A DNA stretch of 64,000 nt, taken from a virus. The position numbers and the translations under genes are program-made. The stretch is taken from the IMG/VR virus record IMGVR_UViG_3300032242_000550, positions 1 through 64,000 of that record; one strand, given 5' to 3'. The notes under the pieces were generated by a model. That model did not search any database. It was given only the letters and a program-made list of their open reading frames with translations, and was not told the origin of the DNA. Every line of letters starts with the position of its first letter. Within the stretch, counting starts at the first letter, position 1. Positions 14,354 through 42,186 of this stretch are shown here, one piece after another.

Positions 14354-15580
14354 TTATTTATACACGATTTGTGCTAATTCAGGATTTACTTCAGCTAAAG
14401 ACAGTTTTTGATATTTATCCACTGTGGTAGTAAAATCTGCAAATTTTTGTAGTATGTATTGATAATCTACCTCTGATGTACATTTATTTTTTAATGCTTG
14501 TAATTGCACATCAAAAAAGTCATTTTGATATTTGCAATGGTTCTTTACCCAATGTTCAATCTTATCCCAGCATTTTATTTTATATTCTGTTGGTAAATTT
14601 ACTACATTTAAATAATTAGGAAATTCTAAATTGTTTAAGTCTATCTCTAACACAGTTTTTCCTGCTACTCTATTAAATTCCTCACAGTAATCAAGCAATT
14701 GTGTTATGTTTCCTATATTAGTAATTTGTACAACTATAGAGACTTTTACAACAATATTAGGATAATTACAAGATAATAGTGTCTGTAGGTTATTACTTAT
14801 TTGCCCCCAATTGCTAGGATATCTTATGTATTCCTGTACAGTTTTATATCCATCAATACTTGCAAGAAATATTACCTTTTTAAACTCTGAAAGCAGTTCA
14901 AAAAACTTATTGTTATTATTAGTCATATTTGAATTAGTGACCAATAATATATCTTTACTATAGCCTAACTCAATCAATTTTTCCAATAGTTCAAAATTCT
15001 TTTTAATTAATGTAGGTTCGCCACCAGTTATATAGAGAATTTTAATATTCTCTAATTGAGAATTAATATTATCTTGAAATGTAGTAGTTTCATACCATTG
15101 GTTGATATCATTATCAACACTTATATAATACTTTTTTAATTCAGAATGTTCACTAACCTGTTTATTAAGTTGGCTACTATTGCGAGGGTTACAGCTTCTA
15201 CATTGCAAATTACACAAATTACCAAATCTTAAATCAATATATTCTATTTTAGTATCTGCTATAGGACTAGTTTTATCAAGCTGATCCCTATACATGTGAT
15301 TATAATTTAATCTTCTGCTTTCTTTACCGTAATTTTCATAATTAACACATTGGATACATCCAGTAACTGGTTCACCCTTAAGCATCTTTTCTCTTATATC
15401 AACGTATTCTGGACTGTTGTAAAAATCTTCTATCTTATCATGTCCTAAATTATATATAGTGCCATCTGGTTTTTTAATAGAGCCTTTATATATACAACAT
15501 GGTTTAATATTACCTTCTGGATCAACTGCTATATGATTCCATGCTAATATACAAAAACTTTTATTATCTATAGAATTCAT
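14354..15580 (-). CDS. Radical SAM protein with N-terminal auxiliary cysteine cluster (twitch/SPASM-like)
   Basis: 408 residues. The core motif CxxxCxxC is GNLCNLQCRSC (C123, C127, C130), which binds the 4Fe-4S cluster that cleaves SAM. TGGEP follows. An extra cysteine set precedes the core (C10, C28, C29, C75, C78), with FCILAWNHIAVDPEGNIKPC and GCIQCVNYE, as in phage and bacterial twitch-domain radical SAM proteins. The substrate is unknown. The start overlaps the DegT aminotransferase gene by 17 nt, so the two likely act on the same pathway, probably a sugar. Two further proteins of the same layout lie at 39.6-42.2 kb. Confidence 0.88.
   Translation of the reverse strand: MNSIDNKSFCILAWNHIAVDPEGNIKPCCIYKGSIKKPDGTIYNLGHDKIEDFYNSPEYVDIREKMLKGEPVTGCIQCVNYENYGKESRRLNYNHMYRDQLDKTSPIADTKIEYIDLRFGNLCNLQCRSCNPRNSSQLNKQVSEHSELKKYYISVDNDINQWYETTTFQDNINSQLENIKILYITGGEPTLIKKNFELLEKLIELGYSKDILLVTNSNMTNNNNKFFELLSEFKKVIFLASIDGYKTVQEYIRYPSNWGQISNNLQTLLSCNYPNIVVKVSIVVQITNIGNITQLLDYCEEFNRVAGKTVLEIDLNNLEFPNYLNVVNLPTEYKIKCWDKIEHWVKNHCKYQNDFFDVQLQALKNKCTSEVDYQYILQKFADFTTTVDKYQKLSLAEVNPELAQIVYK
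14355..14362 (-). promoter_or_regulatory. TATAAATA box upstream of the spanin genes (uncertain)
   Basis: TATAAATA on the minus strand, 8 nt before the i-spanin ATG. It also encodes the last codons of the upstream gene (Tyr-Lys-stop) and would leave almost no leader, so coincidence is possible. Confidence 0.3.
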
Positions 15581-16643
15581 GTACTTTGTCCTTTATATAT
15601 TCAGTTTCATTATCAGTTAATTCAGGATACATAGGTAAACTAATTACCCCACGACTTAACATCACACTAGTACTTAGCATATCTGGTTTAACTAAATTTT
15701 TACCAATTGGCAAATCTCCCAAGACATATTCATAATGAATCTTACTGTCAATTCCAGTAGACTGTAAATGTGTATGTAAACTATTTCTGTCGTCTAGATA
15801 CAATACAAACTTTTGATGTGCATGCGGATCACTTGTATCACTTAAACAACTTAATGGTAGTTTTTTAAAACTATCACACCAATACTTTGCTATCTGACTT
15901 CTACGCACTTGCCACTCATCAATATACTTTGCTCTGACTAATATTTGAGCACAATCTTGTTCGCTCATTTTACTATTATTACCAACATCATGGAAGTAGG
16001 GTTTGTTATTATCTCTGTACTTTACTGCGTACAGATATAACTGTTCATTGTTAGTGACAATAGCACCACCGTTGCCCGAGCTTGGTAAATTTTTAGTAGG
16101 ATCAAAACTGATTGACATACCACTACCCACATCACCTTGACACTCTAACCAATGTTGTGCTCCGTCAACTATGACACCAAATGCATTTGGATAACTAGCA
16201 TCAGGCCATGGCTTGCGACCTGCAAAGCCCATCAAACAATCATATGTACCAGGTGATTCATTGAGTTTTGTATCAATATCAAATATACCGTTCTTGTCTG
16301 TATCAACTAAGTTGACATTCCATCCTGCAGTTAAGAATGCGTTAAGTGTTGCTGGATATGTTAAATTAGGAATATGTATAGTAGGATTGAACGGGATACC
16401 TTTACTGAGCCAATCTTTCTTTTTGTATCTTGCGATAATCTCTAATGCTTGTGTACCGCTATGTACAGTAACAGCATACTTTGTTTTAGTACGATGTTTT
16501 AGCCATTCTTCAAACGAGCGGGTATAATGACCACCCACAAGTTGTCCGTCTTTAAGGGCACGGTGTGTTGCATCAAGCAACTCTTCACCAATGTTCTTAT
16601 ACTGTCTTGCTAGACCAAAATGAGGAATTACTAAGCCACTCAT
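15564..16643 (-). CDS. DegT/DnrJ/EryC1/StrS-type sugar aminotransferase
   Basis: 359 residues, normal for the family. PLP-dependent enzyme that typically converts a keto-NDP-sugar to an amino sugar. Visible: HSGTQALE (phosphate-binding region, about 61-68), VDGAQHW with D160 for the PLP ring nitrogen, and SFDPTKNLPSSGNGG with the Schiff-base lysine K184. Its 5' end overlaps the epimerase gene by 47 nt and its 3' end overlaps the radical SAM gene by 17 nt, one tightly coupled unit. Confidence 0.9.
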   Translation of the reverse strand: MSGLVIPHFGLARQYKNIGEELLDATHRALKDGQLVGGHYTRSFEEWLKHRTKTKYAVTVHSGTQALEIIARYKKKDWLSKGIPFNPTIHIPNLTYPATLNAFLTAGWNVNLVDTDKNGIFDIDTKLNESPGTYDCLMGFAGRKPWPDASYPNAFGVIVDGAQHWLECQGDVGSGMSISFDPTKNLPSSGNGGAIVTNNEQLYLYAVKYRDNNKPYFHDVGNNSKMSEQDCAQILVRAKYIDEWQVRRSQIAKYWCDSFKKLPLSCLSDTSDPHAHQKFVLYLDDRNSLHTHLQSTGIDSKIHYEYVLGDLPIGKNLVKPDMLSTSVMLSRGVISLPMYPELTDNETEYIKDKVHEFYR

Positions 16644-17586
16644 AATACTTTTGAAAGCCTTCTTCTACATCAACTTTAGGATCATATCCAAAGTCTTTTC
16701 TTGCCGCATCAATGTTCAATGCACCACGACTTGGGAAGTCAGCGTCTTTATCACGTACATTAATTGACCCTTTACCTGCACATTTTACTGCTAGATTAGC
16801 AGCCTCTAGTAACGTTCTGCTATGGCTCTTTGTGATATTATAAGTCTTGTTCTCGGTGTTATTACTCAATGCGGCGGCAACTATACCATCTGCGGCATCT
16901 TCTACATATGTAAAGTCTAATGTTTCATTGGCACCATTAACATTCAATACACCACCACGCATTGCAGTAAGCATAAATTTAGCAATAACACGATCCTCAA
17001 CATCTAATTCACCATATACAGCACTTGGGCGAATGATAGTATGAACAAGATTAGTTCTGCGTGTGTAATCTTTTACCAAATCTTCACCGGCAAGTTTCAA
17101 TATACCATACTGACCTTGTGGTTTACAATCATAATCTTCTTTTACATCATCAGTAAAATCACCATATACCATTGAGCTACTGATATAGATGAATTTACGT
17201 ACCTCATACTTATCACTAGCTTCTAGCAAGTTGAGTAACCCTTCACTCATAACACGACTTCCCCATGCTGGATTTGCATTGACTACCTTTTGTCTTGGGA
17301 AGCTAGCCATATGTATTACAATCTCTGGTTCTTCAATTCTAAAAATTTCATCTACATCTTCTGCATTGCAAATATCTTTAGTATAGATAAAACTTAGTGT
17401 GTTGAGGAACTTATCGTTGATTACCTTCTTCTCACGCTCAGCCATCAAGTAGTCAATTTCATCTTGTGGGATGATGCCATAGTTTGTTTTAGTATCCATA
17501 ATGGATACATGATGACCTAAATCTTGTAATCGTACAACTACATTGTGTCCAATAAGTCCTAATCCGCCTGTTACTAGTATATTCAT
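16597..17586 (-). CDS. NAD-dependent nucleotide-sugar epimerase/dehydratase (extended SDR)
   Basis: 329 residues from the ATG at 17586. I prefer this start to one 18 nt upstream because it overlaps the previous stop as ATGA and begins exactly at the Rossmann strand MNILVTGGLGLIGHNVV. The catalytic set is an SSS stretch about 20 residues before a YxxxK motif (YGILK, Y160/K164). The family acts on NDP-sugars (epimerase, dehydratase or related). It sits between a small unknown gene and the aminotransferase, forming an NDP-amino-sugar pathway segment. Confidence 0.9.
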   Translation of the reverse strand: MNILVTGGLGLIGHNVVVRLQDLGHHVSIMDTKTNYGIIPQDEIDYLMAEREKKVINDKFLNTLSFIYTKDICNAEDVDEIFRIEEPEIVIHMASFPRQKVVNANPAWGSRVMSEGLLNLLEASDKYEVRKFIYISSSMVYGDFTDDVKEDYDCKPQGQYGILKLAGEDLVKDYTRRTNLVHTIIRPSAVYGELDVEDRVIAKFMLTAMRGGVLNVNGANETLDFTYVEDAADGIVAAALSNNTENKTYNITKSHSRTLLEAANLAVKCAGKGSINVRDKDADFPSRGALNIDAARKDFGYDPKVDVEEGFQKYYEWLSNSSFWSSKTV

Positions 17587-17915
17587 TCGTATTTCAACTT
17601 CCAATATGTTAATTGTTTATGTGTTAGATATGCTCTAATTTGATATGTTTGCCCATATGTAGTATAATCTACATTACGATGCCAACTGGGTGCTGGTACA
17701 GAGTTTTCCATGATCCATTTACCGGCTTCAGTTTGTTGCCACTCATATATAGGTTGTGCTACAAACAAATCAGGATCTTCAACATCACCCATTCTTATAG
17801 TATGAACTACATGAGTAATAGTTACCATTTCTTCCCCAGTATCAGACAGTTGTATCTGATATTTAGGTCTAGTAAATTCGTCTTTAGACGGCCATGTTGG
17901 CTTTAATTGGGCCAT
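17583..17915 (-). CDS. Conserved-looking small protein of unknown function
   Basis: 110 residues, soluble, rich in aromatic residues (YEWQQTEAGKWIMEN, PAPSWHRNVDYTTYGQ). No family recognised. It overlaps thyA by 32 nt at its 5' end and the epimerase by 4 nt at its 3' end. Its C-terminus TYWKLKYE resembles the end of the 108-residue protein at 44.8 kb (KWKLVTYEL), which may be chance. Confidence 0.7.
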   Translation of the reverse strand: MAQLKPTWPSKDEFTRPKYQIQLSDTGEEMVTITHVVHTIRMGDVEDPDLFVAQPIYEWQQTEAGKWIMENSVPAPSWHRNVDYTTYGQTYQIRAYLTHKQLTYWKLKYE

Positions 17916-24725: not shown

Positions 24726-25667
24726 TTATGATAACCCGTAACTTGCGGCTGCAAGTTGTTGTCTAGCAGAACCAACACCTGCGGTATCTGTGGCTACTAT
24801 GCCAGTATTTGATACTAGGTTTGTTATTGCTGTATAAGAATAGCCAAATCCAAATATAGCAGTATCTACCCCATATCCGGCGGCTGCTAGGTCACATCTA
24901 GCAGTACCTACACCTGTGGTATCAGTAGCAACTACACCAGTATTTGATACTAGGTTGGTCATTGAATAACGAGGAGTCTGATTATTAGGGTCGGTAGTTC
25001 CATATCCAAATATAGCTTTATCAGTTCCATAACCTGCGGCTGCTAGGTCACATCTGACAGTGCCAACGCCTGTGGTGTCAGTAGCAACTACACCGGTGTT
25101 TGAAACTTTGTTGGTCATTGATAACGCTACAGAACCGTTATTCCCATATCCAAAGATAGCTTTATCCGTACCATAACCTGCCGATGCCAAAGCATATCTA
25201 GCAGTGCCAGTACCACCCGTGTCAGTAGCAACCACTCCAGTGTTTGAAACTAGATTGGTAATTGATTGTTGTGAGGTAGTATAACCGTATCCAAAGATAG
25301 CTTTATCCGTACCATAACCTGCGGCTGCTATATAGTATCTAGCAGTACCAACACCTGTGGTGTCTGTGGCGACTACACCTGTATTTGATACTAGGTTGGT
25401 CATTGATTTAGTTCCTGCATTGAACCCATACCCAAATATAGCCTTATCGGTGCCATAACCTGCGGCTGCTAGAAGCATTCTAGCTTGGCCAACACCTGTA
25501 GTGTCACTAGCAACTACTCCTGTGTTGCTTACAAGGTTTGTTATTGCCGTATACCCTCCTCCGTTAATATATCCATATCCAAATATAGCCTTAGCTGAAG
25601 GTGGAGGTTTAGCTATACTAAACCCACCGGTAAATGTTATACCACCTAAAAACGTCATGTCTGCCAT
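24726..25667 (-). CDS. Six-repeat, probable beta-propeller-like virion protein
   Basis: 313 residues built almost wholly of six repeats of about 49 residues. Each has AIFGYG, then S(M/I)TNLVSNTGVVATDT, then GVGTAR and LAAAGYGTDK. Variable residues cluster between AIFGYG and the TNLVSN core. Repeating Gly-rich beta units like these suggest a closed propeller or beta-solenoid. Similar repeats occur in phage tail proteins and could bind a receptor. No signal peptide or enzyme motif. It lies between a terminator and the porin gene. Confidence 0.78.
   Translation of the reverse strand: MADMTFLGGITFTGGFSIAKPPPSAKAIFGYGYINGGGYTAITNLVSNTGVVASDTTGVGQARMLLAAAGYGTDKAIFGYGFNAGTKSMTNLVSNTGVVATDTTGVGTARYYIAAAGYGTDKAIFGYGYTTSQQSITNLVSNTGVVATDTGGTGTARYALASAGYGTDKAIFGYGNNGSVALSMTNKVSNTGVVATDTTGVGTVRCDLAAAGYGTDKAIFGYGTTDPNNQTPRYSMTNLVSNTGVVATDTTGVGTARCDLAAAGYGVDTAIFGFGYSYTAITNLVSNTGIVATDTAGVGSARQQLAAASYGLS
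24760..25640 (-). repeat. Six tandem repeats of about 147 bp
   Basis: DNA blocks such as caccagtatttgatactagg and ccataacctgcggctgctag recur in each unit with few changes, so unequal crossing over could alter repeat number or shuffle variants. Confidence 0.8.
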
Positions 25668-25745: not shown

Positions 25746-26651
25746 TTAAAAGCTATGTGCTAAACCAATACCAAATTGCTTAACATCATTAGCTGTACCA
25801 CCTGCGTCAACATTGCGATAAGCAACTAAAACATTTGTACGCTTGCTAAAAGCATAGTTAACACCTACGTTATATGCTTTAGTTTCACCTGCGACTAAAC
25901 CAGTCTTAGTAGCATAGCTGCCTTTTAAGCTAACAGCACCAGTAACTGGTAATGTTGCGCCATAAAAATGACCTTTAGTCTTAACAATACCGGTTTTATC
26001 TTCACTTTGAATAGTAGATAACTCTAAACCACCTACTTTACCACCCAATGTTACTACATTAGTATAGTCTGTACCTGATGCAAAACGTGCGGCTGCGCCA
26101 GTTACTGGACCTAATTTACCACCAAGACTCCAACTAGTAGCTTCTGGTGTAGCAGGACTTGTGTACATACTACGGTCATATGTAATAGCGACAGAACTAA
26201 AATTTGTAGCTAAATAAGCACCATCACCAATACGCTTGTCACGGATGTTAATAACATCTGGAGAAACAGATGCATATGTTGCACCTGCAAATGGATCAGC
26301 GTTTTTCATAGTGATATATTCGCTATGTTCTTTACGACCTAAATCAATACTACCAACTCTAGTAGAAATACCTATAGTGCTTTGGCGATCACCAAATTGT
26401 GTTGCAGCTCCTGCTTTTGGATCATCGGCTGCTACAGATGTATCAAGTATAACTCTAGCTGTTAAGCCACTGCCTAACTTTTCTTCAACTTTGATACCGA
26501 AACGGCTTGAATCATTAACTAGTGAGTTAACTTTGGTAGTACCAGTTTTTGTGCTATCAGCAAATTCGCTGAGTCTGCCATACACAGTTACCTGTGCTGA
26601 TGCAACCATTGTCGTTGCTGCCAATAATGTCGCTAATGCGATTTTTTTCAT
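25746..26651 (-). CDS. Outer-membrane porin of the betaproteobacterial type
   Basis: 301 residues. Signal peptide MKKIALATLLAATTMVASA with cleavage before QVTVYGRL, the usual start of Burkholderiales porins. Family segments: SSRFGIKVEEKLGSGLTARV, RQSTIGISTRVGSIDLGRK and a C-terminal GIGLAHSF with the terminal Phe used for outer-membrane assembly. Slightly shorter than typical family members (about 330-370), probably in the loops. It would form a channel in the host outer membrane. A perfect T4-like late promoter, a small leader hairpin and a strong ribosome site (AAAGGAAAAT) precede it. The known parallel is the porin gene lc of phage PA-2, which replaces the host porin. Host-derived by transfer; role inferred. 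Confidence 0.93.
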   Translation of the reverse strand: MKKIALATLLAATTMVASAQVTVYGRLSEFADSTKTGTTKVNSLVNDSSRFGIKVEEKLGSGLTARVILDTSVAADDPKAGAATQFGDRQSTIGISTRVGSIDLGRKEHSEYITMKNADPFAGATYASVSPDVINIRDKRIGDGAYLATNFSSVAITYDRSMYTSPATPEATSWSLGGKLGPVTGAAARFASGTDYTNVVTLGGKVGGLELSTIQSEDKTGIVKTKGHFYGATLPVTGAVSLKGSYATKTGLVAGETKAYNVGVNYAFSKRTNVLVAYRNVDAGGTANDVKQFGIGLAHSF

Positions 26652-27676: not shown

Positions 27677-27688
27677 ATTGAGTAAAAA

Positions 27689-27710
27689 AATAGGGACCGA
27701 AGTCCCTATT
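27689..27710 (-). terminator. Strong terminator after the tmRNA gene
   Basis: AATAGGGAC-TTCG-GTCCCTATT followed by TTTTT on the minus strand. The UUCG tetraloop makes this an unusually stable hairpin. It directly follows the coding piece of the tmRNA. Confidence 0.88.
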
Positions 27711-27745
27711 GCTATTTTTGGTTACAAGGTATAACTACCTCGCTA

Positions 27746-27784
27746 TCAGGCGTTTGCTGCCAATAGATATTGTGAATCGTTTGC
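27746..27784 (-). other. tmRNA proteolysis-tag reading frame (ANDSQYLLAANA)
   Basis: Twelve codons and TGA, starting GCA AAC GAT after GTAATC, as in bacterial tmRNAs (E. coli tag ANDENYALAA). Start and stop contexts match the E. coli tag region. The tag ends AANA rather than the usual LAA or VAA. Confidence 0.85.
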
Positions 27785-27893
27785 GATTACTTTTTTTGCT
27801 TCTACGGCCGAGATACTCCCAACCCTAACGGCTTCTGCTTTGCCGAGCTGTCCACTCTGTTACTCTTTGCCCAATCGATCCTGTGTCATCCCC

Positions 27894-27917
27894 ACCTAAA
27901 TATACATCATACACTTA
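27894..27917 (-). other. Intervening segment of the permuted tmRNA
   Basis: About 24 nt between acceptor end and coding-piece start. Its ends extend the acceptor pairing (CCACCTAA with TTAGGTGG), forming a hairpin in the precursor. In other permuted tmRNAs the intervening segment is removed. Confidence 0.7.
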
Positions 27918-27984
27918 GGTGGAGATGGCCGGCGCTGCCCCGGCGTCTTGAACTTATTTTACATCACTTCATACAGCAATAACT

Positions 27985-30900
27985 TCAATTGTATTTAGTA
28001 TTAAAATACTCTTTTAACCAAGGCCAATCATAACTTAGACGTAATTTGTCTAAATCACCATTGACTGATTCATAGTATTCTACAGCATCTATCGCACCAT
28101 TTATACTATATTGGGCGTAATCACCCTCACCCACAGTTGACCATATCTTTAATCGTTGTCTACTAACTTTACTATCTTCACAACGTAACTTAATAGCTTC
28201 ACGGAAACTAGTACGCCATGTGCTAAACTCATCAGTATTATACCTTGCCACACCACTATTCAACTCTACAACTTCATGTTCATTATCCAATGTAAAGTCT
28301 AACCCTTTACCCATATTGCTCAATGTAATCTGTCTGTTATAAGCAATCAAGGCTTGATGGCCGTATACCAAACCATTAACAGGATTACTTGCATAAAAGA
28401 TATAATGTTTAGGTATCTGTAATCTATCTGGTTGCCATGTCCAATCAAACTTACTGTTAACACGTAACTTAGCAAATACAGTAAACATCCATGAGGTACG
28501 GCTTGCATTTGCGGCAGCATGATAGGCAGCAACACGACCATTGACCCCATCAACACGAACAACACGATTCTTCAATCCTTTAGTTACATTCAATAAATGT
28601 TCATAGTTTTCATCGGCTCCAGTTTCACCATTACTTAGGAATACTATATCTAATGGCTTTGACTGTCCCATCTTAGTTGCTTTAGCTATATATGGATAAT
28701 CATACAACTCTTTTTCAACATAATCGTTAGCTTCTTTGGGTACAACAATACGTGTACCACCTACATTTGTAATCAATATGTTCTTTGATTCACTAGACCA
28801 CATGCTGATTGGTTCATCATTAATATCAGGAGCAATACAATTATCACTTGTTGTAAACACTGCATATGGGAAATTATATGTATGTTCTTTAAAGTTTAAA
28901 TGTGTATCTGCTTCTGTTACAAAACTAGGTGCAGATAAACGTTTTAGTTTCTGATGCTGATTAAAATTAATCTTCTCTATGTTCTCTAACTTATCCAAAT
29001 CTTCTACCAGAATACGTAACTTGTTTACATTAATAAAGAACGTGTCACCAAACTTCTGTTTATCACTAGGAAACACATGTAATTGTTCTAGTGAGAATGG
29101 ATCAACTATATAAGTAAAATCAAAATTACTGTAATCACAAATAGAACTACATACCCAAATATAATGATCTTTCTTAATACCCAACTCATATAGCATGTTT
29201 TTTAATGTGGTTAAGTAATCATTTTCATATTTGATTGTGTAAACGTTTTCACGTTTTGTTTTGTTTTCAATCAAGGAAACCATGTCAGTTAAACCATCGT
29301 TACCGTAATCAATTAGATATACATCATATAGGCAGTTACTAGCTATAGCACGTTTTGTTTTTACAAAGTTTAGATTGTTTAGATGTTCTATGACCTTTAC
29401 GTATTTTGTATCTTCTGCAAATGTTTCTTTATTAACCATAAACGTAGTACCCCAATGACTCCATTGTGTACCAAACACATGAACCATTGACATTTGCCAT
29501 GGGTTAGGATAATAGCTAAAATCAAATTTAGTATAATCTAATTCGCTGTTTAATATCCAACATAGTTCTGTTGTAGATTTGTTTATACAGCGATTGATAG
29601 TATCAACCCAACTGTTTAAGTATCTTGTCTTTTGTAGTGTAGGGAACTGTAATTTAAGTTGTTCAAATCGTACGGCAGATTCTTTATTACCCTTATCCAC
29701 AAAGAATGCATCTACTTGTTTAAACAGTTTAGATAGATATATTTCATCTAGTTTTGTATTTTCAATGAAGTTTATATCTCTATATCCTTCTTTATACATT
29801 TTTCCATTAACTAGATATGTTTGTGTTGTTTCACTTTCAGGGCTACCAAACGTATTAATATTGAATGCCTGTTCTTTAGTAGGCTTCCAATTAAAATCAA
29901 ACTTAGTATAATCAATATTTTTACGCAATGCCCAGAAGATTTCATCACTATGTTGTTCTATCAAACTATCTAATGTGGTTTCAATATAGTATTGAGGATA
30001 TTGTATTGCTTCAGAGGATAACAATATATTTTCTAATAATACAACAGTTCCATCATTGTTTGGAGTAACATATTTAGGACCATCTTGTAAATGAACATCT
30101 TCTAATAGTGTACCAAACTGATAGATATAAGGTGGGCTATGTATATCTGGATGCCAACTAAAATCAAATACGTTTTTATCAAACCCGGCTGGTATAATCC
30201 AATTGGTAAAATTTTGTTTAATTTTTGCTATAGGATAATCCATATATTTGATATCTGTTGCTCCATTTGCAACATATCTAGGACCACCTATCTTATCCCA
30301 TGTGCTAGGGAACTGATAGATATATGCAGGTTCGGTACTATCTGGATGCCAACTATAATCAAACTCTAGTATATTATCAGGTATATCCCAATTTGTTTTA
30401 TCAGAAACACGTGTTGCTTTAAGTATATCCATGTACTTAGTAGGTGTATCTGTTTTACAGTTTGGTGGAGTAAACGTTGGACCATCTGTTTTTTGCCATT
30501 GTGTACCAAATTGATATATTAGTGGTTCGTCATTTATATTTGGATGCCAGCTAAAATCAAACAGTGTGGTATCTAAGCCTGCAGGTACAGTCCAATATGT
30601 CATATCTTGTTTAACTTTTGCTGTTGGATAATCTATATATTTTACTTCAGTAGCACCTTCTACAGTAAATTTAGGTCCGCCTGTACGACTCCAAGTACTA
30701 GCAAATTGATAAATGTAGGGTGGTTCTGTATCATCTGGATGCCAACTAAAATCAAATGATGATTGTTCTACATTACCTGGGATCAACCAATTAGTAAATC
30801 TCCATGCTACCACACTTGCTTTAAGTGTATTAATGTATTTTATCTCTGTAGCACCGGGTACTACATATCTAGGTCCACCTGTTTTTTGATGTACGGTAGC

Positions 30901-32124
30901 AAATTGATATATGTAGGGTGGGTCATTAGGATTAGGTTCCCAACTGTAATCAAAACTATTTTGTACTACATATGATGGTATTTCCCAGTTATCCATACAG
31001 GGTTTACGTGTGGCACGTTCTTCCATGTATTTGTATTCAGTAGCACCTTCAACAACATATTGAATAGATATTTTATCTTCAGGTTTATTCCATTGATTAC
31101 CCCATGCATAGATATATGGAGGACTCCACGGATCGGGTACCCATGAATAATCTATACCATCACAGTTTTCTAAATGTGTAAATCGTGTACTATTAGGTAA
31201 TAATTTTGCTCTCAATGATTCATCTTCAATGAATTTATATTCAGTTGCACCCGGTACACGATATTCAACTGTTGGCATAATCTCTGCAAGATATTGAGTG
31301 TTGCCAAACATATATATAAATGCAGGCTCACGTGGATCTGGTCTCCAACTGAAATCAAATGAGTTTTTATCTATTGATTTTAATTCTGTCCATCTATCAT
31401 ACTCAGGTAATACTACAACTGAGTTGTCCATATACTTACGTTCAGTTGCACCAGGACAATGATATTCTAATGTAGGTTTTAACTCGGCACTGATATATTT
31501 GTTTCCCCATGTATAGATGTATGCAGGCTCACGTGGGTCAGGTCTCCAAGTAAAATCAAATGTATCTTTATCTACTGCTTGTATTTCTACCCACTTATCC
31601 CATTCAGGTAATAAATCTACTGAATCATTCATGTATTTTACATTAGTAGCACCTTCAACATGATATTCTACATAATGTTTAATTTCTGCTGGATAGAATT
31701 TACAACCCCACTTATATATGTAGGGTGGGTCATATGGGTTAGGTTCCCAACTGTAATCAAAACTTAACTCATTAATTTTGTCTAGTACTACCCAATTATC
31801 ATGTTTTATATTTTTTCTATGTAGTGGTTCAACATCAGCACGATAGATAATAATTTCACTATCTTGTGTTGAACATAACCATGTTCCACTATCTTTTTGA
31901 TATTGACTGGGCCATACGTTATTATGTTCACTAGTCCAAACTTCGTCATCGGGTAAGAAGTCAAAATCCCAATCCCAATCAAAGTTTGTATAGTCACAAT
32001 ATTCATTGATTATCCAAAAGTGTTCGGTGGTACATTGATTTCTAGCATGTGCCAAATCAATTGCATGTTTTTCTCTTGGGTGTGCGTTGGGTTTATTACC
32101 GTAATAAAATACATCTCTAAGCAT
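27985..32124 (-). CDS. Giant repeat protein related to glycosyltransferases
   Basis: 1,379 residues. About fourteen tandem modules of 45-75 residues, with core FDFSWHPDxxEPPYIYQFG, then GGPxYxVxGATExKYMD. The last about 250 residues resemble the 317-residue glycosyltransferase-like protein at 43.8 kb: KPLDIVFLSNGE, RVVRVDGVNGRVAAYHAAA, where the latter has RVDGVKGSDAAHKAAG. The DGD motif of that protein is missing here (VFAKL in its place). So it may be a catalytically changed enzyme or a glycan-binding scaffold. No signal peptide or membrane segment. It starts back to back with the plus-strand radical SAM gene and is followed by the tmRNA. Confidence 0.8.
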   Translation of the reverse strand: MLRDVFYYGNKPNAHPREKHAIDLAHARNQCTTEHFWIINEYCDYTNFDWDWDFDFLPDDEVWTSEHNNVWPSQYQKDSGTWLCSTQDSEIIIYRADVEPLHRKNIKHDNWVVLDKINELSFDYSWEPNPYDPPYIYKWGCKFYPAEIKHYVEYHVEGATNVKYMNDSVDLLPEWDKWVEIQAVDKDTFDFTWRPDPREPAYIYTWGNKYISAELKPTLEYHCPGATERKYMDNSVVVLPEYDRWTELKSIDKNSFDFSWRPDPREPAFIYMFGNTQYLAEIMPTVEYRVPGATEYKFIEDESLRAKLLPNSTRFTHLENCDGIDYSWVPDPWSPPYIYAWGNQWNKPEDKISIQYVVEGATEYKYMEERATRKPCMDNWEIPSYVVQNSFDYSWEPNPNDPPYIYQFATVHQKTGGPRYVVPGATEIKYINTLKASVVAWRFTNWLIPGNVEQSSFDFSWHPDDTEPPYIYQFASTWSRTGGPKFTVEGATEVKYIDYPTAKVKQDMTYWTVPAGLDTTLFDFSWHPNINDEPLIYQFGTQWQKTDGPTFTPPNCKTDTPTKYMDILKATRVSDKTNWDIPDNILEFDYSWHPDSTEPAYIYQFPSTWDKIGGPRYVANGATDIKYMDYPIAKIKQNFTNWIIPAGFDKNVFDFSWHPDIHSPPYIYQFGTLLEDVHLQDGPKYVTPNNDGTVVLLENILLSSEAIQYPQYYIETTLDSLIEQHSDEIFWALRKNIDYTKFDFNWKPTKEQAFNINTFGSPESETTQTYLVNGKMYKEGYRDINFIENTKLDEIYLSKLFKQVDAFFVDKGNKESAVRFEQLKLQFPTLQKTRYLNSWVDTINRCINKSTTELCWILNSELDYTKFDFSYYPNPWQMSMVHVFGTQWSHWGTTFMVNKETFAEDTKYVKVIEHLNNLNFVKTKRAIASNCLYDVYLIDYGNDGLTDMVSLIENKTKRENVYTIKYENDYLTTLKNMLYELGIKKDHYIWVCSSICDYSNFDFTYIVDPFSLEQLHVFPSDKQKFGDTFFINVNKLRILVEDLDKLENIEKINFNQHQKLKRLSAPSFVTEADTHLNFKEHTYNFPYAVFTTSDNCIAPDINDEPISMWSSESKNILITNVGGTRIVVPKEANDYVEKELYDYPYIAKATKMGQSKPLDIVFLSNGETGADENYEHLLNVTKGLKNRVVRVDGVNGRVAAYHAAANASRTSWMFTVFAKLRVNSKFDWTWQPDRLQIPKHYIFYASNPVNGLVYGHQALIAYNRQITLSNMGKGLDFTLDNEHEVVELNSGVARYNTDEFSTWRTSFREAIKLRCEDSKVSRQRLKIWSTVGEGDYAQYSINGAIDAVEYYESVNGDLDKLRLSYDWPWLKEYFNTKYN
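28430..32060 (-). repeat. About fourteen diverged tandem modules (FDFSWxPD motif)
   Basis: Each module has an (F/I)D(F/Y)(S/T)W-x-P-(D/N) core, a PPYIYxFG-like segment and, in most, GATExKY. The middle eight or nine are most alike. The first and last few are diverged. Confidence 0.8.
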
Positions 32125-32207: not shown

Positions 32208-33269
32208 GTGAGTGAATATACCAATTATGAATTTACCCCGGGCAAACCAATCAGAACTTATAATACAAATGGTACATGGAGAGATTGGAGCACCGATGAA
32301 TTAGTAGGTGCAAAATTAAACTATCTTACTGGATGGAAATGTGGTGCGGGTGTTGATAGTTTATTCATTGATATGGATGGTGGTGTGTGGACTGCTAGCT
32401 GTCGTGTAGGTGGCAACTTGGGTAGTGTTTGGGACGACTTTGTAGTGCCAGAAGATTGGATAGATTGTACTAAAAACGTCTGTAGTTGTGGTGCTGACTT
32501 ATTCATACCCAAAACTAGTGTTATAGAATTTAAACCGTTATTACGTAAAGGTCAAGGATTAGATGCTCAACCTGAATTACGTAATGATAACTTAACAGAA
32601 TATGTTGCTATGGAACGTACACATGCTAGTACACAGAAACAAATTTACTGGGAAATAGGTCGTAGATGTAACTATGACTGTAGCTATTGCTGGCCATGGA
32701 TACACAACAACACTGATCCACATAAATCATTAGAAGAACTAATGAAAGCTACACATTTGATTGAGAAAAAATTCACTAAGGGTGAAAGTGTTAATTTCAT
32801 TATCAGTGGTGGTGAACCAACTGTCAACAAAGATTTCTTAGATTGGTTACGTTACTTAAATGCATGTGGACATCATGTTAGTTTGCATAGTAATGGTAGT
32901 CGTTTACCTGACTATTACAAAGAAGTTATACATTATGGTGACTTAAATCTTAGTGTACATTATGAATTCTATGATAGAAAGAAGTTTGTTAAGGTAGTTG
33001 AAGCTATTGCAAAAGAAAAAGCAGAAAATGGTGATTGCGGACATTTAGAAGTTAAGTTCATGATGGCACCACATAATCGTGATGAAACATTAAGTCTAGA
33101 AGCAGAATTAAAAGAACTACCATACTTTAGTGATTACTGTACATGGGCTATTGTTCCTATTCGCGGTGATTTGAATAACAAAACTAGTGCGCCTGATTCA
33201 GGATCGGGTAGTGAAGTTATGGTAGGTTATACTAAAGAAGATTATATTTTATTTGGCGATAGAAAATGA
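32208..33269 (+). CDS. Radical SAM protein with auxiliary cysteine domain placed N-terminally (permuted)
   Basis: 353 residues, GTG start with ribosome site TAGGAA. Residues 43-100 form an auxiliary cysteine domain: GWKC, CRVGG and C-x4-C-x1-C (C45, C65, C87, C92, C94). The radical SAM core follows: RRCNYDCSYC (C154, C158, C161) and SGGEPT. The same auxiliary domain lies at the C-terminus of the 316-residue protein at 42.9 kb with exactly the same cysteine spacing, so one of the two is rearranged. The substrate is unknown. Overlaps the next gene by 4 nt (ATGA). Confidence 0.88.
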   Translation: MSEYTNYEFTPGKPIRTYNTNGTWRDWSTDELVGAKLNYLTGWKCGAGVDSLFIDMDGGVWTASCRVGGNLGSVWDDFVVPEDWIDCTKNVCSCGADLFIPKTSVIEFKPLLRKGQGLDAQPELRNDNLTEYVAMERTHASTQKQIYWEIGRRCNYDCSYCWPWIHNNTDPHKSLEELMKATHLIEKKFTKGESVNFIISGGEPTVNKDFLDWLRYLNACGHHVSLHSNGSRLPDYYKEVIHYGDLNLSVHYEFYDRKKFVKVVEAIAKEKAENGDCGHLEVKFMMAPHNRDETLSLEAELKELPYFSDYCTWAIVPIRGDLNNKTSAPDSGSGSEVMVGYTKEDYILFGDRK

Positions 33270-34015
33270 AAATAGTATTAGTCACCGGAGGATTTGACCC
33301 ACTACATTCAGGTCATATTGAATACTTTAAGGCTGCAAAAAAGCTCGGAGATAAACTAATTGTTGGGTTGAATAGTGATGCATGGTTAGCTCGTAAAAAG
33401 GGTCAACCATTCATGCCCTACACCGAACGTATGTCAATCATTGAGAATTTAGTAATGGTAGAACATTGTGTCATTTTCAACGATGATGATGGATCTAGCA
33501 TTCAGGCTATACATAATGTAAAGATGATGTATCCAGATGCAGATATTATCTTTGCAAATGGTGGTGATAGGACAGCTACAAACATTCCCGAAATGTGTGT
33601 TAAAGATGTTGAATTTGTATTTGGTGTGGGTGGTAGTAATAAAAAGAACAGTAGCAGTTGGATATTAGAAGAATGGAAAAGTCCTAAAACAATACGACCC
33701 TGGGGTTATTATCGTGTGTTACATGAAGTTCCGGGTATGAAGGTTAAAGAACTTACAGTTGACTCAGGATCTAGTTTAAGTATGCAACGACACGAATATC
33801 GTGCAGAGTATTGGATTGTCTCAGAGGGTGAGGCTACAGTATATTGGGACAAGTATAGCAATACAAAACTAACGAAACATAGTTCAGAAGTCATACAAAA
33901 ACAAGAATGGCATAGATTAGTTAATGAAACATCTATGCCACTAAAGCTTGTTGAAATTCAATACGGAGAACAATGTATTGAAGAAGATATAATAAGATCA
34001 GATTACAAGCGTTAA
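33266..34015 (+). CDS. Cytidylyltransferase-like / cupin fusion
   Basis: 249 residues. N-terminal about 130: nucleotidyltransferase fold with GGFDPLHSGHIEYF (H14, H17, the HxGH motif) and NSDAW, as in enzymes that load a sugar or alcohol phosphate onto CTP. C-terminal about 115: cupin beginning RPWGYYRVLHEVPGMKVKEL, with SMQRHEYRAEYWIVSEGEATVYW, resembling the isomerase end of mannose-6-phosphate isomerase/GDP-mannose pyrophosphorylase. So one chain may make an activated sugar. Coupled to the radical SAM gene. Ends overlap the minus-strand gene at 34.0 kb tail to tail by 18 nt. Confidence 0.85.
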   Translation: MKIVLVTGGFDPLHSGHIEYFKAAKKLGDKLIVGLNSDAWLARKKGQPFMPYTERMSIIENLVMVEHCVIFNDDDGSSIQAIHNVKMMYPDADIIFANGGDRTATNIPEMCVKDVEFVFGVGGSNKKNSSSWILEEWKSPKTIRPWGYYRVLHEVPGMKVKELTVDSGSSLSMQRHEYRAEYWIVSEGEATVYWDKYSNTKLTKHSSEVIQKQEWHRLVNETSMPLKLVEIQYGEQCIEEDIIRSDYKR

Positions 34016-36553: not shown

Positions 36554-37113
36554 CTCTGTAAAATCATTAATAGTCTATCATTTGTGACTTTTTGCCAACC
36601 ATTATCTATCATTTTATTAATTTCATTGATAACATCAGGGCATTCCTGTCCATAGTCATGTGCCGCAAGATATCCACCAACTTTAACAAACTTACTCCAA
36701 AATTCTAAGTTAGTAGCTAAATTGGGGTTACCATGGTCTCCGTCTTCAAAGTATAAATCAATTTCTTTATCCCAGGTACTCGCACAAGCAGGACTATATC
36801 CTTCTATAAATTGTATATTGCTAAATCTATTGATGTTGTTTAGTAAATGTTGTTTGGATATTTTATCATTTAATACTTGTTCAACAATATATGTTTGTAC
36901 ATATTCATTGTAGGGTTCATTCCAATTGCTGCCATGGTCACAACAATCAAATGTTGTAATAATTGCATCCGGACGTGTTTCTGCTATTCGCACCGTTGAA
37001 CCACCTAAATAAGTACCTATCTCTACGATTGTAGGGTTGGGTGGTAAAAGTTTTGCTATCTGTAATAAACAATCTATCTCGGGAATTGCATGAATCTTTG
37101 AATAATCAATCAT
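36547..37113 (-). CDS. Class I methyltransferase (Methyltransf_24-like)
   Basis: 188 residues. SAM motif IVEIGTYLGGST (29-40), second acidic position TTFDCCDHG, and DLYFEDGDHGNPN followed by VGGYLAAHDY, typical of methyltransferases found in sugar and glycan clusters. Substrate unknown. Overlaps the sugar dehydrogenase by 8 nt. Confidence 0.82.
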   Translation of the reverse strand: MIDYSKIHAIPEIDCLLQIAKLLPPNPTIVEIGTYLGGSTVRIAETRPDAIITTFDCCDHGSNWNEPYNEYVQTYIVEQVLNDKISKQHLLNNINRFSNIQFIEGYSPACASTWDKEIDLYFEDGDHGNPNLATNLEFWSKFVKVGGYLAAHDYGQECPDVINEINKMIDNGWQKVTNDRLLMILQRC

Positions 37114-38332
37114 TTTTAATCCTAGTATTACCGTAATGTATAACTTTACATCCTGTTATACTATCTATCGTACGCCACGGGTCTAAAATAACGCTACCGT
37201 GTTCTATATTAAAGTAGAATTGATTTGGTAATATCTCAACTCCAGTACCCGCATAAGTTACTGCAGGATTATGTGCCATTAAAATTACTGCACATCCTTG
37301 CCAAACATCATCAGTTAACGGGTCGGCATATGAAACTTTATGTCCTGCTTCTTCAACAAAATACCCAACCAATTCACTATAACTACCAATAGTATAGGGT
37401 ACATATGGCTTATATGCTCGTCCATGAATTACAATAGGTAATTTGTGTTCAACAGATAGATTAACTAATTTTAATGCTAGATTCTTAGCTTGTTGGTCTC
37501 TACTATGCATAACAGCATGAAACAAATCATATCCTAAATCTAAACGTTCTGCTAGATAGCGTAATGCAATATTATCTCTTGGATGACATGCTCCGGCATC
37601 ACCCATACCAGCAGTTAAATATCTTGGCCCTGTAATACGTTGTGTTGCGGCTTTCAATGCATCAGTAACTACATCTACATTGATATTGCCGTTCTTTTCC
37701 GCAACATCTTGTATCATATTCACCAAGCCAATCTTAGTACTAATAAACGTATTGTAAAATATCTTAATAGATTCAGCTTCATCCCATGTACCAATATTGA
37801 TTCTAGGATCGTTTGCCATTAATGGCTTATAAAAATCTACTAATAGTTTTGCATCACCGGTTTCACTACCATCACTAGTTCCAATGATAATACATTCTGG
37901 GTTAACCATATCCCATTTAACGCTTCCCATAGCTATCAAGTATGGATTATAAATGAATCGTGCATTGGTAATGCAAGGTTCTAAATGTTGTCGTACTGTT
38001 CCGGGAAGTACAGTAGAGATTAGTACTACCAATTGAGTTTTGTTAACATATTTGTTTATTTCAGTTAATACCTGCTGAACAATACTATAATCAAAATCTT
38101 TTGATGGTAAATCAGCGATTGGTTTACTACCACCATACATAGGATCGTGTGGTGTAGGCACTGCAACAAAGATTAAATCACGTCCGTTAACAGCTTCTTG
38201 TATCGTATCTGTTAACGGAATTTGACTATCGGGGTCTTTAACTACATCATATCCAACTATATTATAATGTTGGCTCATAACTTCTGCACACGGTAAACCT
38301 AATTTACCACAGCCAATCATTGCTACTTGCAT
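37106..38332 (-). CDS. UDP-glucose/GDP-mannose dehydrogenase family protein
   Basis: 408 residues. N-terminal Rossmann fold MQVAMIGCGKLGLPCAEV, then FVAVPTPHDP, STVLPGT and the catalytic cysteine in GDAGACHPRDN (C249), where the family usually has GGSCFPKD. It oxidises an NDP-sugar to a uronic acid. The middle and C-terminal domains are present, so it looks active. The His after Cys is a mild deviation. Overlaps the 423-residue gene by 10 nt. Confidence 0.9.
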   Translation of the reverse strand: MQVAMIGCGKLGLPCAEVMSQHYNIVGYDVVKDPDSQIPLTDTIQEAVNGRDLIFVAVPTPHDPMYGGSKPIADLPSKDFDYSIVQQVLTEINKYVNKTQLVVLISTVLPGTVRQHLEPCITNARFIYNPYLIAMGSVKWDMVNPECIIIGTSDGSETGDAKLLVDFYKPLMANDPRINIGTWDEAESIKIFYNTFISTKIGLVNMIQDVAEKNGNINVDVVTDALKAATQRITGPRYLTAGMGDAGACHPRDNIALRYLAERLDLGYDLFHAVMHSRDQQAKNLALKLVNLSVEHKLPIVIHGRAYKPYVPYTIGSYSELVGYFVEEAGHKVSYADPLTDDVWQGCAVILMAHNPAVTYAGTGVEILPNQFYFNIEHGSVILDPWRTIDSITGCKVIHYGNTRIKND

Positions 38333-39594
38333 AACTTTTCCTTAATAAAATCTACTACTTCTTGCTCTGGTCTACGTGACATTAGCAAGTTATAATTATG
38401 TTCTAGTATATATTTGTTTTCTTGTATTAGGTTAAATAACTGTTCTGTGGTATATTTACTAGATATATCTTCTACTAACTTAACTATTTTATCCATTCTT
38501 TTATGACAATCAAATTCTTCATCATAACTTTCATCCCATAATGTATCAAACGTTTTATATCCCAAACTACGTAAACGTTTTAATATATAAGGATTGCCTA
38601 TTACAATAAAGGGCATACCCAATGATAATGGTTTAAATGTTTTTTCTGTTAAAAACAGATTACTTGAATCTGAGGAAAATAATGTTTCTGTTGTTATGAA
38701 TATCAAATTCTTAGCTGAGAAATTATATTTTATATTATCCCAATGATTACTACTAAAGTCAGAGGTGTCAAGTACCCATGGTAAAGAACTTAACATTTCT
38801 GCAAAATCAGTATTATCTTTAATCTTATCAATAAACTGATTATTGTTATAGCTAACAATTTCATCTATAGAACGTACATCTTTTAAACTGGCATTAAAGT
38901 CCGTTAGTAACTTTTTATTATACATTTGATACATGAAATAATATCTAAGTTCTCTTGGAATACGATTCAAACATAAAAACTTTTTTAAATTAGGACTATT
39001 TATGTCGCTACTTGACGGTTGTTTAGTTGTGGTCATTCGCATCGCAGTTTCAAAATATTGCCAGGTAATCATTTTTATTTCATTATCAACAATATCATTG
39101 TTCATATTACCCGATATCAAAACTACATTACGTGTGTTAATAGATGCTTTAGCTAATTTATCCTTTAATAAAACATAGTAGTCTTGTGTATAATAATCAC
39201 TTTCATGTGCATCATTTAACACTAATAAACATTGTCCTGAGTTTACCGCATTAATTAATCCAATTGGCAGATGCTCAAAGAAGTTATAATTATCGGGTAT
39301 ACCCTTAATACCGTTACGTGAATGAAGATTACGCACAGTATTACCCAAATATCTAAATGTCAAAACATACACAAAGGGTTCACTAGTAGATAAAGCTTCA
39401 TGCATTGTAATAGCTTTAGTTGGTATATTGTTTTTTTCTAATACAGTTTGTAATGGGGCATGATAGTCATAATAACATTCTTCAAAAATGCCATTCATAG
39501 GGTAATATTTATTATCATATGAATTTATATGCCAACGCCACGTGGGCTGATAGTCTGCTACTATACCATCATATGCAAAATTAATTGGATTCAT
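38323..39594 (-). CDS. Probable glycosyltransferase (GT10-like C-terminal end)
   Basis: 423 residues. The last about 130 residues carry FLTEKTFKPLSLGMPFIVIG and LRSLGYKTFDTLWDESYDE, a pattern of fucosyltransferase-like (GT10) proteins in phages and giant viruses. The N-terminal part is unassigned. It would transfer a sugar to a glycan, but donor and acceptor are unknown. Overlaps the radical SAM gene upstream by 14 nt. Confidence 0.7.
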   Translation of the reverse strand: MNPINFAYDGIVADYQPTWRWHINSYDNKYYPMNGIFEECYYDYHAPLQTVLEKNNIPTKAITMHEALSTSEPFVYVLTFRYLGNTVRNLHSRNGIKGIPDNYNFFEHLPIGLINAVNSGQCLLVLNDAHESDYYTQDYYVLLKDKLAKASINTRNVVLISGNMNNDIVDNEIKMITWQYFETAMRMTTTKQPSSSDINSPNLKKFLCLNRIPRELRYYFMYQMYNKKLLTDFNASLKDVRSIDEIVSYNNNQFIDKIKDNTDFAEMLSSLPWVLDTSDFSSNHWDNIKYNFSAKNLIFITTETLFSSDSSNLFLTEKTFKPLSLGMPFIVIGNPYILKRLRSLGYKTFDTLWDESYDEEFDCHKRMDKIVKLVEDISSKYTTEQLFNLIQENKYILEHNYNLLMSRRPEQEVVDFIKEKLCK

Positions 39595-40798
39595 TTAATA
39601 AACTCCAATACTCAGGGAATGTTGTTGCAAAAGATTCATTACGATAGTCATCATGTAAATTGGTTACTTTAATAAATTCAGCTAAATTATCACTTGATCC
39701 TTCATTATCTAACATAAAAGCCAAGACTTCTTTAATACCAAATATTTCTTGTACATATGATAATGAATGTGCATCTAATTTTTCAACCTTAGCTTTGATA
39801 ATATTCTTAATATTAGTGGGTAAATTCTTAATGGACATCTTGTCTGGCCAATGTAATAGATTGAATTTTAAGTTTAATTTGAGATTTTCTGCATTAAACT
39901 TTATTAATTCATCAATATAAAATATATTGTACATACTTATGGTACAGTATAAACTCATTGATACATTAGATTTACTATTAGCTTGGTATTTCTTTATATT
40001 ACTTACTACCTCATCCCACTTAGCAGGATGACGTTGATATTCAAATCTAGGACCAATATCATCTAAACTTATGTTAAATTCAACCAATGCCATTTTATCC
40101 CAAACTTGTGATACAGCCTCATCATATATAGTTCCATTGGTATTGTAAAACAGTTCAATATCTAATTTTCTTATATCTGGATAGTTAGATAGCATTTCCA
40201 TAATTCTAGCATGTTCTGGTTGCATTAACGGTTCGCCACCATAAAATTCAATAATATGTAGATCTGGTATAAGTTCTTTAAACGTTTCAAAGTTCAGTTC
40301 ATTTTTAATAAACTTACGTTCTGCATACTTACTGAATATCTTAATAGTATGTTCGTGGTATTCACCTGTATCTAATGATTCTTTCAACCAATTAGAACTA
40401 CAGTATGGTCCACATATTCTACATTTTAAATTGCATAGACTGCTAAACTTTAAATCCATTGTGATAATTTTAGGATCTTGGTATCTAACAGGATACTTAT
40501 GTCCTTTATGACGATGCCATTTAGATACGTTTTCTCTATGTTGACGTAGACTGGTAATTCCAGCTGATTCTTCATCCCAACAGGCTTTACATGCTTCAGG
40601 CTCAACACCATTTAAAAAATCATTTCTAATTTTTTCCATTGCAGGCTGATAGAATAATTCTTGTATAGTCTTATCATGCAATGTTTCTGTATCAATCTCT
40701 GTATCTACTTTGTTAAGATTATACTTACAGCAAGGTGATACAGAACCACTAGGATTTAATACTATATTTGAGAAAGGAAATAAACACTTACGAGACAT
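39581..40798 (-). CDS. Radical SAM protein with N-terminal auxiliary cysteine cluster (twitch-type)
   Basis: 405 residues. Core SSLCNLKCRIC (C122, C126, C129) and YGGEPLM. Auxiliary cysteines before it (C5, C23, C24, C70, C73) with NPSGSVSPCC and CKACWDEES. Same layout as the proteins at 14.4 and 40.8 kb but diverged, so three copies of one architecture sit in this genome. Substrate unknown. Start shares one base with the previous stop. Confidence 0.87.
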   Translation of the reverse strand: MSRKCLFPFSNIVLNPSGSVSPCCKYNLNKVDTEIDTETLHDKTIQELFYQPAMEKIRNDFLNGVEPEACKACWDEESAGITSLRQHRENVSKWHRHKGHKYPVRYQDPKIITMDLKFSSLCNLKCRICGPYCSSNWLKESLDTGEYHEHTIKIFSKYAERKFIKNELNFETFKELIPDLHIIEFYGGEPLMQPEHARIMEMLSNYPDIRKLDIELFYNTNGTIYDEAVSQVWDKMALVEFNISLDDIGPRFEYQRHPAKWDEVVSNIKKYQANSKSNVSMSLYCTISMYNIFYIDELIKFNAENLKLNLKFNLLHWPDKMSIKNLPTNIKNIIKAKVEKLDAHSLSYVQEIFGIKEVLAFMLDNEGSSDNLAEFIKVTNLHDDYRNESFATTFPEYWSLLNESN

Positions 40799-42186
40799 TA
40801 AACAGCCTTACACATGTTGTAAAATTCAGTATATTCAGGGAAAGTATCTGTAAACTTCATACTTCTACGTACATCAAAATCATCAAACCACATCCAAAAT
40901 AATCGTCTTTGTTGATCTCTATCCATAGTGTTAGTTTTTATACTTTCACTTAAGGTACGTATAAAATCCATAAATTCAATCCATCTACCATATTTGTCTG
41001 GTACTAATGGCATAATATCTTTCTTAGTATCCATGTACTCTATACATTCATCAATATACTTTGCGAAATCAGGTGTCAATATAGATGGACTTTGATGGCT
41101 AGGGAACGTCACTACACTCTGTTTAATAGCAACTGGTCGTCCATGTTTATGATATAAACTTTCAGCATACATTACAAAATCTTTAATACTAGATATACTC
41201 AATGCATTAATTGCAGGCATAAATCCAAATCCAAAGTCTAGTTCTTTATGGCTCAATACTTTGTCAATGTTACTAGTGAATCTATCCCACTTAATACCAT
41301 TACGTATATATTCTGCTCTTTCACCCACACTTTCCATACTAACTAATATCTCAACATCAAATACTTCACTTAGTTTAGGTAGATATGTTAAGAACTTATC
41401 CAAATAATTCTTTGGTGTATTCATGTTAGTAACTATCCAAAAACTTACTTTCTTGTCAGGGGCAATAGCTTGTTTACTTGCTAATAACTTATCAACAAAC
41501 GTATAGAATTCTGGCATGATAAGTGGTTCACCACCAATAATACCAATACGTGTACAATACTTAACACCTACAGTATCAAACCATTCCCAAAACTTTTCAT
41601 TGAATATATCAGGTGCTTTGGGGAATTCTCTATCATATTGTTCTTGCGAGATACGTCCTAATTTGATTTCTTCAGTAGCCCATTGTGTGCTGTAGTGATG
41701 GTTACAATACATACATTTCATATCACACGTATTACCCAAACTAATCTCTAACATATATGGATGATCTGATTTTAATTTAGGATCGTTTATATCAGTAATA
41801 TTCTGTAAGGTGTCTAAAAATACTTCTTCACTATACTGTTGTTCAGGAATCTGTTTACGCATAGTCATATGACGCCAATATGCTTCTGGTGTATGTCTTG
41901 GACTAGTCATACCACTATCTTCAATGTTCCAACATGTTTTACAGTCTTGTGTTTTTACACCTTGAATTAAATCTAAACGGCTTTGTAGCATCTTAGGACT
42001 ATTAAGAAATGCATCTATCCCATGCGTTTTTAGTTCATCTTCAGATACTTTATTACTAGGTGTTCTACAGCAACTACGAAATTCTCCCCTATCCATATTA
42101 AATATAGGATAGTTCCATTTCAAATCACATATGGTGTCTAACGGACTAAATCTCTCAGCAGAATTATATATCGGTATTGTTTTCAT
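40798..42186 (-). CDS. Radical SAM protein with N-terminal auxiliary cysteine cluster (twitch-type)
   Basis: 462 residues. Core GNTCDMKCMYC (C154, C158, C161) and GGEPLIM. Auxiliary cysteines C20, C39, C40, C82 and C85 with REFRSCCRT-like and DCKTCWNIED. A longer insert separates the two clusters than in the sister proteins. The gene overlaps the sulfotransferase-like gene by 23 nt. Substrate unknown. Confidence 0.87.
   Translation of the reverse strand: MKTIPIYNSAERFSPLDTICDLKWNYPIFNMDRGEFRSCCRTPSNKVSEDELKTHGIDAFLNSPKMLQSRLDLIQGVKTQDCKTCWNIEDSGMTSPRHTPEAYWRHMTMRKQIPEQQYSEEVFLDTLQNITDINDPKLKSDHPYMLEISLGNTCDMKCMYCNHHYSTQWATEEIKLGRISQEQYDREFPKAPDIFNEKFWEWFDTVGVKYCTRIGIIGGEPLIMPEFYTFVDKLLASKQAIAPDKKVSFWIVTNMNTPKNYLDKFLTYLPKLSEVFDVEILVSMESVGERAEYIRNGIKWDRFTSNIDKVLSHKELDFGFGFMPAINALSISSIKDFVMYAESLYHKHGRPVAIKQSVVTFPSHQSPSILTPDFAKYIDECIEYMDTKKDIMPLVPDKYGRWIEFMDFIRTLSESIKTNTMDRDQQRRLFWMWFDDFDVRRSMKFTDTFPEYTEFYNMCKAV

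Follow-up and report, generated by a model that had tools for sequence, protein, structure and literature searches.

Permuted tmRNA is already known in phages. Such a gene was published for the Methylophilales (OM43) phage Melnitz, and the phage survey in the same paper covered 18,146 genomes and found tmRNA structures in 402 phages, with 53 two-piece cases among them (PMC9004378). The available text of the tmRNA database paper counts 79 unique phage tmRNAs and describes one nominally archaeal permuted tmRNA with a tRNA-Ala gene in its spacer and another with a repeat element (PMC11915505). Protein genes in tmRNA spacers are not mentioned in that available text, and the inserts which it lists, a tRNA-Ala gene and a repeat, differ from the protein ORFs found in the spacers of the phage family described here (PMC11915505). 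Until now, phage tmRNA was known but scattered.

The stretch of DNA analysed here, called the window, is 64,000 nucleotides long (positions 1 to 64,000 of the virus record IMGVR_UViG_3300032242_000550), and it adds another member to this group. Its gene is, like the Melnitz ssrA (MZ577097), a phage-encoded, permuted two-piece tmRNA. The Melnitz gene scores as the alphaproteobacterial type (RF01849, 106.7 bits), whereas the window copy scores best as the betaproteobacterial one; a glutamine riboswitch follows the Melnitz gene, whereas the window copy is marked by a 24-nt spacer and a tag ending in LAANA. The reading preferred here, with a probability of about 0.78, is that the phage has here a functional two-piece tmRNA gene, which belongs to a phage-borne, modular lineage in which many relatives carry genes in the spacer.

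The permuted tmRNA gene and its genome setting

An earlier note on this DNA had proposed a phage-encoded, circularly permuted tmRNA at 27718-27960 without naming the strand, and had suggested a covariance search with the Rfam families as a check. The tmRNA strand is the minus strand, and the gene extends from 27978 to about 27687, slightly exceeding the range first given. In the covariance search, the core at 27978..27746 (-) matched tmRNA_permuted (RF04321) over the full model length with 92.1 bits against a cut-off of 47 (E 1.8e-16). The whole locus, 27687..28018 (-), matched the betaproteobacterial model beta_tmRNA (RF01850) with 84.5 bits against a cut-off of 84 (E 5.8e-24), which is a marginal pass and also the best result of any lineage model in the clan, the alphaproteobacterial model RF01849 being outscored despite the alpha-like T-loop of this copy.

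Reading of the minus strand from 28060 to 27640 recovered the 7-bp acceptor pairing, the 5-bp T-stem, the tag with its stop and the terminator, all in the order that the note had claimed. The acceptor half is encoded ahead of the coding half, and a 7-bp acceptor stem joins both. The acceptor (3') half at 27918..27978 (-), the part to be transcribed first, comprises a P2 strand, the T-arm, the acceptor 3' strand and A73-C-C. The T-arm GCCGG-GGCAGCG-CCGGC (27944..27928, -) has a 5-bp stem and a loop of the GGCRG type. The acceptor 3' strand CATCTCC (27927..27921, -) pairs in 7/7 positions, including G3-U70, with the acceptor 5' strand GGGGATG (27893..27887, -), and an RNase P cut is predicted just 5' of 27893. 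A73-CC is read from the sequence at 27920..27918 (-), where A76 of CCA is absent from the gene and a T follows A73-C-C. G3-U70 and A73, both present here, are alanine identity elements.

Between the two acceptor strands lies the 24-nt spacer TAAGTGTATGATGTATATTTAGGT (27894..27917, -), which contains no ORF and prolongs the acceptor stem into a single 19-bp hairpin; acceptor and spacer together fold with -37.4 kcal/mol (z -6.19). In the RF04321 alignment, the coding (5') half as far as the tag stop occupies 27746..27893 (-). Within it, the tag frame was read from the sequence at 27746..27784 (-), starting at the resume codon GCA, and its codons GCA AAC GAT TCA CAA TAT CTA TTG GCA GCA AAC GCC TGA encode ANDSQYLLAANA followed by the TGA stop. 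After the tag comes an intrinsic terminator with a 9-bp stem and a T run (27689..27710, -). ARAGORN reported nothing at this locus or elsewhere in the record, including no tRNA in the rest of it, and the program is therefore unfit to judge the tmRNA call; the miss is probably due to the GGCAGCG T-loop. BLASTN searches of 50,697 phage records with the locus and with a coding piece of the family found no real match.

The source virus record, of which the window is a part, has 155,159 bases and is probably, to judge from sequence lengths, a fragment of a larger genome, because several related records reach 320-352 kb. The earlier note had called the genome T4-like. This holds loosely: the terminase is of the T4 gp17 type (phrog_2, E 2.2e-49), but the nearest terminases of named phages, about 50% identical, are those of the PA5oct/Paride group of jumbo phages of Pseudomonas. 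Upstream of the tmRNA, a repeat-rich gene of 1379 aa (27985..32124, -) ends 7 nt ahead of the tmRNA match; its family is unassigned, and it found no match in the 50,697 phage records, Pfam or PHROGs. Downstream are encoded a 292-aa protein with no family match and, two genes from the tmRNA, a gram-negative porin (Porin_4, E 8e-26; 25746..26651, -). SmpB is encoded neither in the record nor in 19 relatives of up to 352 kb, so host SmpB would be needed as partner.

Several other genes in the window were noted. The gene at 24726..25667 (-) encodes a protein with no family match, in which a unit of about 45 residues (AAAGYGTDKAIFGYG...ITNLVSNTGVVATDTTGVGTAR) is repeated in tandem. Several radical SAM proteins occur together with the nucleotide-sugar genes for UDP-glucose dehydrogenase, an epimerase and a cytidylyltransferase (14354..17604, 32208..34015 and 37106..43830), a gene content that suggests a cluster for surface or glycan modification. 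An ORF of 4646 aa (49963..63903, -) is very large for a phage protein.

A phage-borne lineage of exchangeable parts

Related viral records, 43 in number, were reached through the neighbour protein or the tag pattern, and RF04321 is above its cut-off in 29 of them. The neighbour gene led to nine records of 100 kb or more, eight of which have the tmRNA above cut-off, and in each of the 17 copies that were reached through this gene and parsed, the tmRNA lies downstream of the homologue of the 1379-aa gene, on the same strand. The gap between the two is about 60 nt in L003, L005, L012 and L023; a segment-by-segment comparison with L003 and L023 cannot be used within the spacer, as theirs are longer. 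A second pattern scan returned mostly unrelated stretches, from which those parsing as tmRNA were kept, and the parsed set comprises 120 tmRNA copies with 110 distinct spacers.

In these 120 copies, compensatory changes were found at acceptor pairs 4-6 and T-stem pairs 1-5. The parser required full acceptor pairing and T70, so that the pairing percentage and the constancy of G3-U70 are no independent evidence, while the variety of pair types at 4-6 is. Tag and stop are retained in nearly all of the 120 copies. A conserved tag frame and acceptor pairing in related phages, for which the earlier note had looked ahead, are both present, and together with the covariance match they support its identification of the gene. 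A large phage lineage that keeps the gene at a constant genome position suggests that ribosome rescue is a lasting part of the biology of these phages and not an accident.

For the family motif TGGACAG..CGG.AA....GAA..CGT, the matches in viral sequences numbered at least 119 stretches. Among 84,980 genomes of bacteria and archaea it matched 18 stretches, most of them judged to be chance matches, with about 7 expected by chance according to our own estimate. No bacterial chromosomal copy was confirmed among these genomes, seven of the matched ones having been checked by covariance model. The lone parsed member among the 18 matches is L203, a contig of 3 kb that belongs to a gammaproteobacterial metagenome bin.

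A tree of coding pieces separates phage and betaproteobacterial rows from alphaproteobacterial rows with a weak support of 84. T-loops of the GGCRG class occur in 38 of 39 alphaproteobacterial rows and TTCRA loops in all four betaproteobacterial rows; the phages show all three kinds of T-loop. Along the tree, the phages switch T-loop class 33 times and spacer class 37 times, where shuffling gives means of 48.6 and 49, respectively; both counts are upper estimates on a poorly resolved tree. The 24-nt spacers of L001 and L005 are identical, but the two copies differ in T-loop and tag. One spacer accompanied by differing T-loops or tags was likewise found in L085/L163/L168 (near-identical ORF spacers), L148/L203 and L086/L127. 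From such combinations, it is hard to avoid the conclusion that acceptor half, spacer and tag have been swapped between phages in an exchange of parts. The window copy itself combines an alpha-like T-arm with a beta-like body.

These data bear on the proposal of the earlier note that the gene was captured from a bacterial host. In the sense of a recent capture from the present host, the proposal was not borne out and is judged quite improbable. The betaproteobacterial model RF01850 is the best in the clan for the window, and one Burkholderiales genome (L339) has a short hairpin spacer similar to the TAAG...TTTAG of the window copy, yet the four betaproteobacterial copies compared carry TTCRA T-loops, while the GGCAGCG loop of the window is of the class common to the alphaproteobacterial rows (RF01849). 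The coding piece of the window copy groups instead with phage and betaproteobacterial rows, at the modest support given above. The nearby porin, which we take to resemble a Burkholderiales porin, may hint at the phage host and would fit a capture; permuted tmRNA is, however, above cut-off in just 5 of 120 Burkholderiales genomes, compared with 105 of 115 alphaproteobacterial ones. Further against capture, the nearest rows to the window on the tree are all from phages (L044, L041, L004 and L012), and the only real motif match in the bacterial and archaeal genomes is the small metagenome-bin contig.

Open reading frames in the spacers

Spacer length ranges over 24-383 nt across the family, the window having 24 nt. 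An ORF test was applied to distinct spacers of at least 60 nt, demanding a Shine-Dalgarno-like motif and an ATG within the first ~24 nt and an ORF reaching the spacer end or beyond, and 39 of 93 spacers passed. Shuffled spacers gave an expectation of 0.47 passes (at most 3 in 300 rounds), rising to 4.7 (at most 12) when the ends were kept fixed. Among spacers of at least 200 nt, 12/14 passed, and the other two also have long ORFs by eye (L082 with a later ATG, L088 with a TTG start). Judged by sequence comparison, the spacer ORFs are under purifying selection, with codon-position differences of 57/28/113 and a pN/pS of 0.26 (one pair per family). A chance origin of the ORFs was rejected by these counts and by both kinds of shuffle.

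Some of the encoded proteins have recognizable relatives. One spacer ORF is a DUF2061 protein (E 3.5e-20) with a homologue in a phage record, and Lak megaphages encode homologues of the 119-aa ORF of L105. The spacer ORF of L249 is homologous to Melnitz gene 85 (59% identity, E 6e-30), which stands as a separate gene immediately upstream of the tmRNA in that phage. The Melnitz tmRNA has its own 143-nt spacer, in which GGAGAA and an ATG frame, MFKWLSKTRLVVITRDYFRERNRKADAK..., are unannotated in MZ577097. This frame lies at 1080..1261 of L413 (about 46079..46260 of MZ577097) and extends into the coding half; it was recognized by inspection, fails the strict Shine-Dalgarno pattern with GGAGAA and stands outside the 39/93 count.

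Bacterial copies served as controls. The 43 that were parsed have a median spacer of 35 nt, and two spacers exceed 100 nt (L398 and L399). None of the 43 passes the ORF test; only 5 of them have spacers of at least 60 nt, so this control demonstrates short spacers more than long ones lacking ORFs. The sample favoured best-scoring loci with ten more picked for length, and cyanobacteria were left out. The alphaproteobacterial permuted tmRNA of L398 has a 233-nt spacer with repeats.

The ORFs are closely fitted to their spacers, 20 of the 39 ending 1 nt short of the spacer end. In the 39 cases, the Shine-Dalgarno motif is predicted to pair with the last codons of its own ORF, the mean predicted chance of its being unpaired amounting to 0.04. 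Spacer ends form 9.5 contiguous paired bases on average versus 4.5 in shuffles, with or without an ORF. Because the end pairing is independent of the ORF, it may serve processing first, with the ORFs later fitted into it.

We give even odds to a broader model in which the permuted tmRNA of large freshwater phages is a two-in-one gene. The excised spacer would be an exchangeable pocket for small protein genes, the precursor acting first as messenger and then as tmRNA, and translation would be confined to nascent precursors through the pairing between the Shine-Dalgarno motif and the last codons of the nested gene. The window would represent the empty, short-spacer form. A structured RNA whose discarded spacer contains protein genes would be an arrangement so far undescribed for tmRNA in the literature searched, and the novelty of the spacer genes is provisionally claimed. 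The idea of spacer ORFs can be directly tested in the cultivated phage Melnitz.

Proposed working and the tag peptide

The window gene is, on its sequence features, a sound and probably functional phage permuted tmRNA. It would be transcribed downstream of the 1379-aa gene, with the acceptor half leading, as far as the intrinsic terminator. In the precursor, the acceptor stem would join the two halves, with the 24-nt spacer lengthening it to the 19-bp hairpin. The spacer would then be cut out by RNase P and 3'-processing enzymes of the host, the host would supply the final A of CCA, and host AlaRS would charge the molecule by way of G3-U70. Together with host SmpB, it could enter and release stalled ribosomes, adding the tag ANDSQYLLAANA and keeping up translation during infection. 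Freeing of stalled ribosomes during infection, as the earlier note had suggested, would be the natural reading of the gene. In relatives with a spacer gene, the Shine-Dalgarno motif of which is predicted to pair with the last codons of that gene, translation of the gene would probably occur mainly during synthesis of the precursor.

A decayed, non-functional remnant is the least probable of the alternatives, and we regard it as very improbable. Features that speak against a working tmRNA are the betaproteobacterial score barely above its cut-off, the LAANA tag end and a T-loop without the TTCRA of ordinary tRNA, and a remnant would also agree with the ARAGORN miss. The unusual loop loses its force, though, as the GGCRG class is common in related phages and normal in alphaproteobacterial tmRNA. 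Every pair is intact, the tag is open and the terminator is there, and the gene is kept at the same place in most relatives, all of which favours a working tmRNA.

Unlikely, with somewhat more in its favour, is a decoy or re-targeting tmRNA, which would compete with host tmRNA or whose tag would escape or redirect proteolysis, instead of performing ordinary rescue. The window tag ends in LAANA and not in ALAA, and this end is common to related tags with differing middles (SQ, ET, DT), so it is judged to be kept. Other relatives have long basic tags of 23-39 aa, and the tag-less tmRNA of phage DS6A inhibits host tmRNA, according to the available text of the database paper (PMC11915505). Against these points stand the intact tag frame of the window and the standard ALAA end in most members (78/120). 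Within the preferred reading of ordinary rescue, the LAANA end may, as far as sequence tells, still alter the proteolysis of tagged proteins.

With the kept unusual tag ends, LAANA and long basic ones, one can examine whether tagged proteins are re-targeted or shielded by phages. AANA ends in place of ALAA were also seen in L041, L044, L004, L012, L016, L080 and L084. Long, partly basic tags of 25-39 aa, compared with the usual 10 aa, occur in L047, L061, L063, L127, L135, L137, L111 and L165, one example being ANVNKTVTVSGKNVKFSARTAKEALAV.
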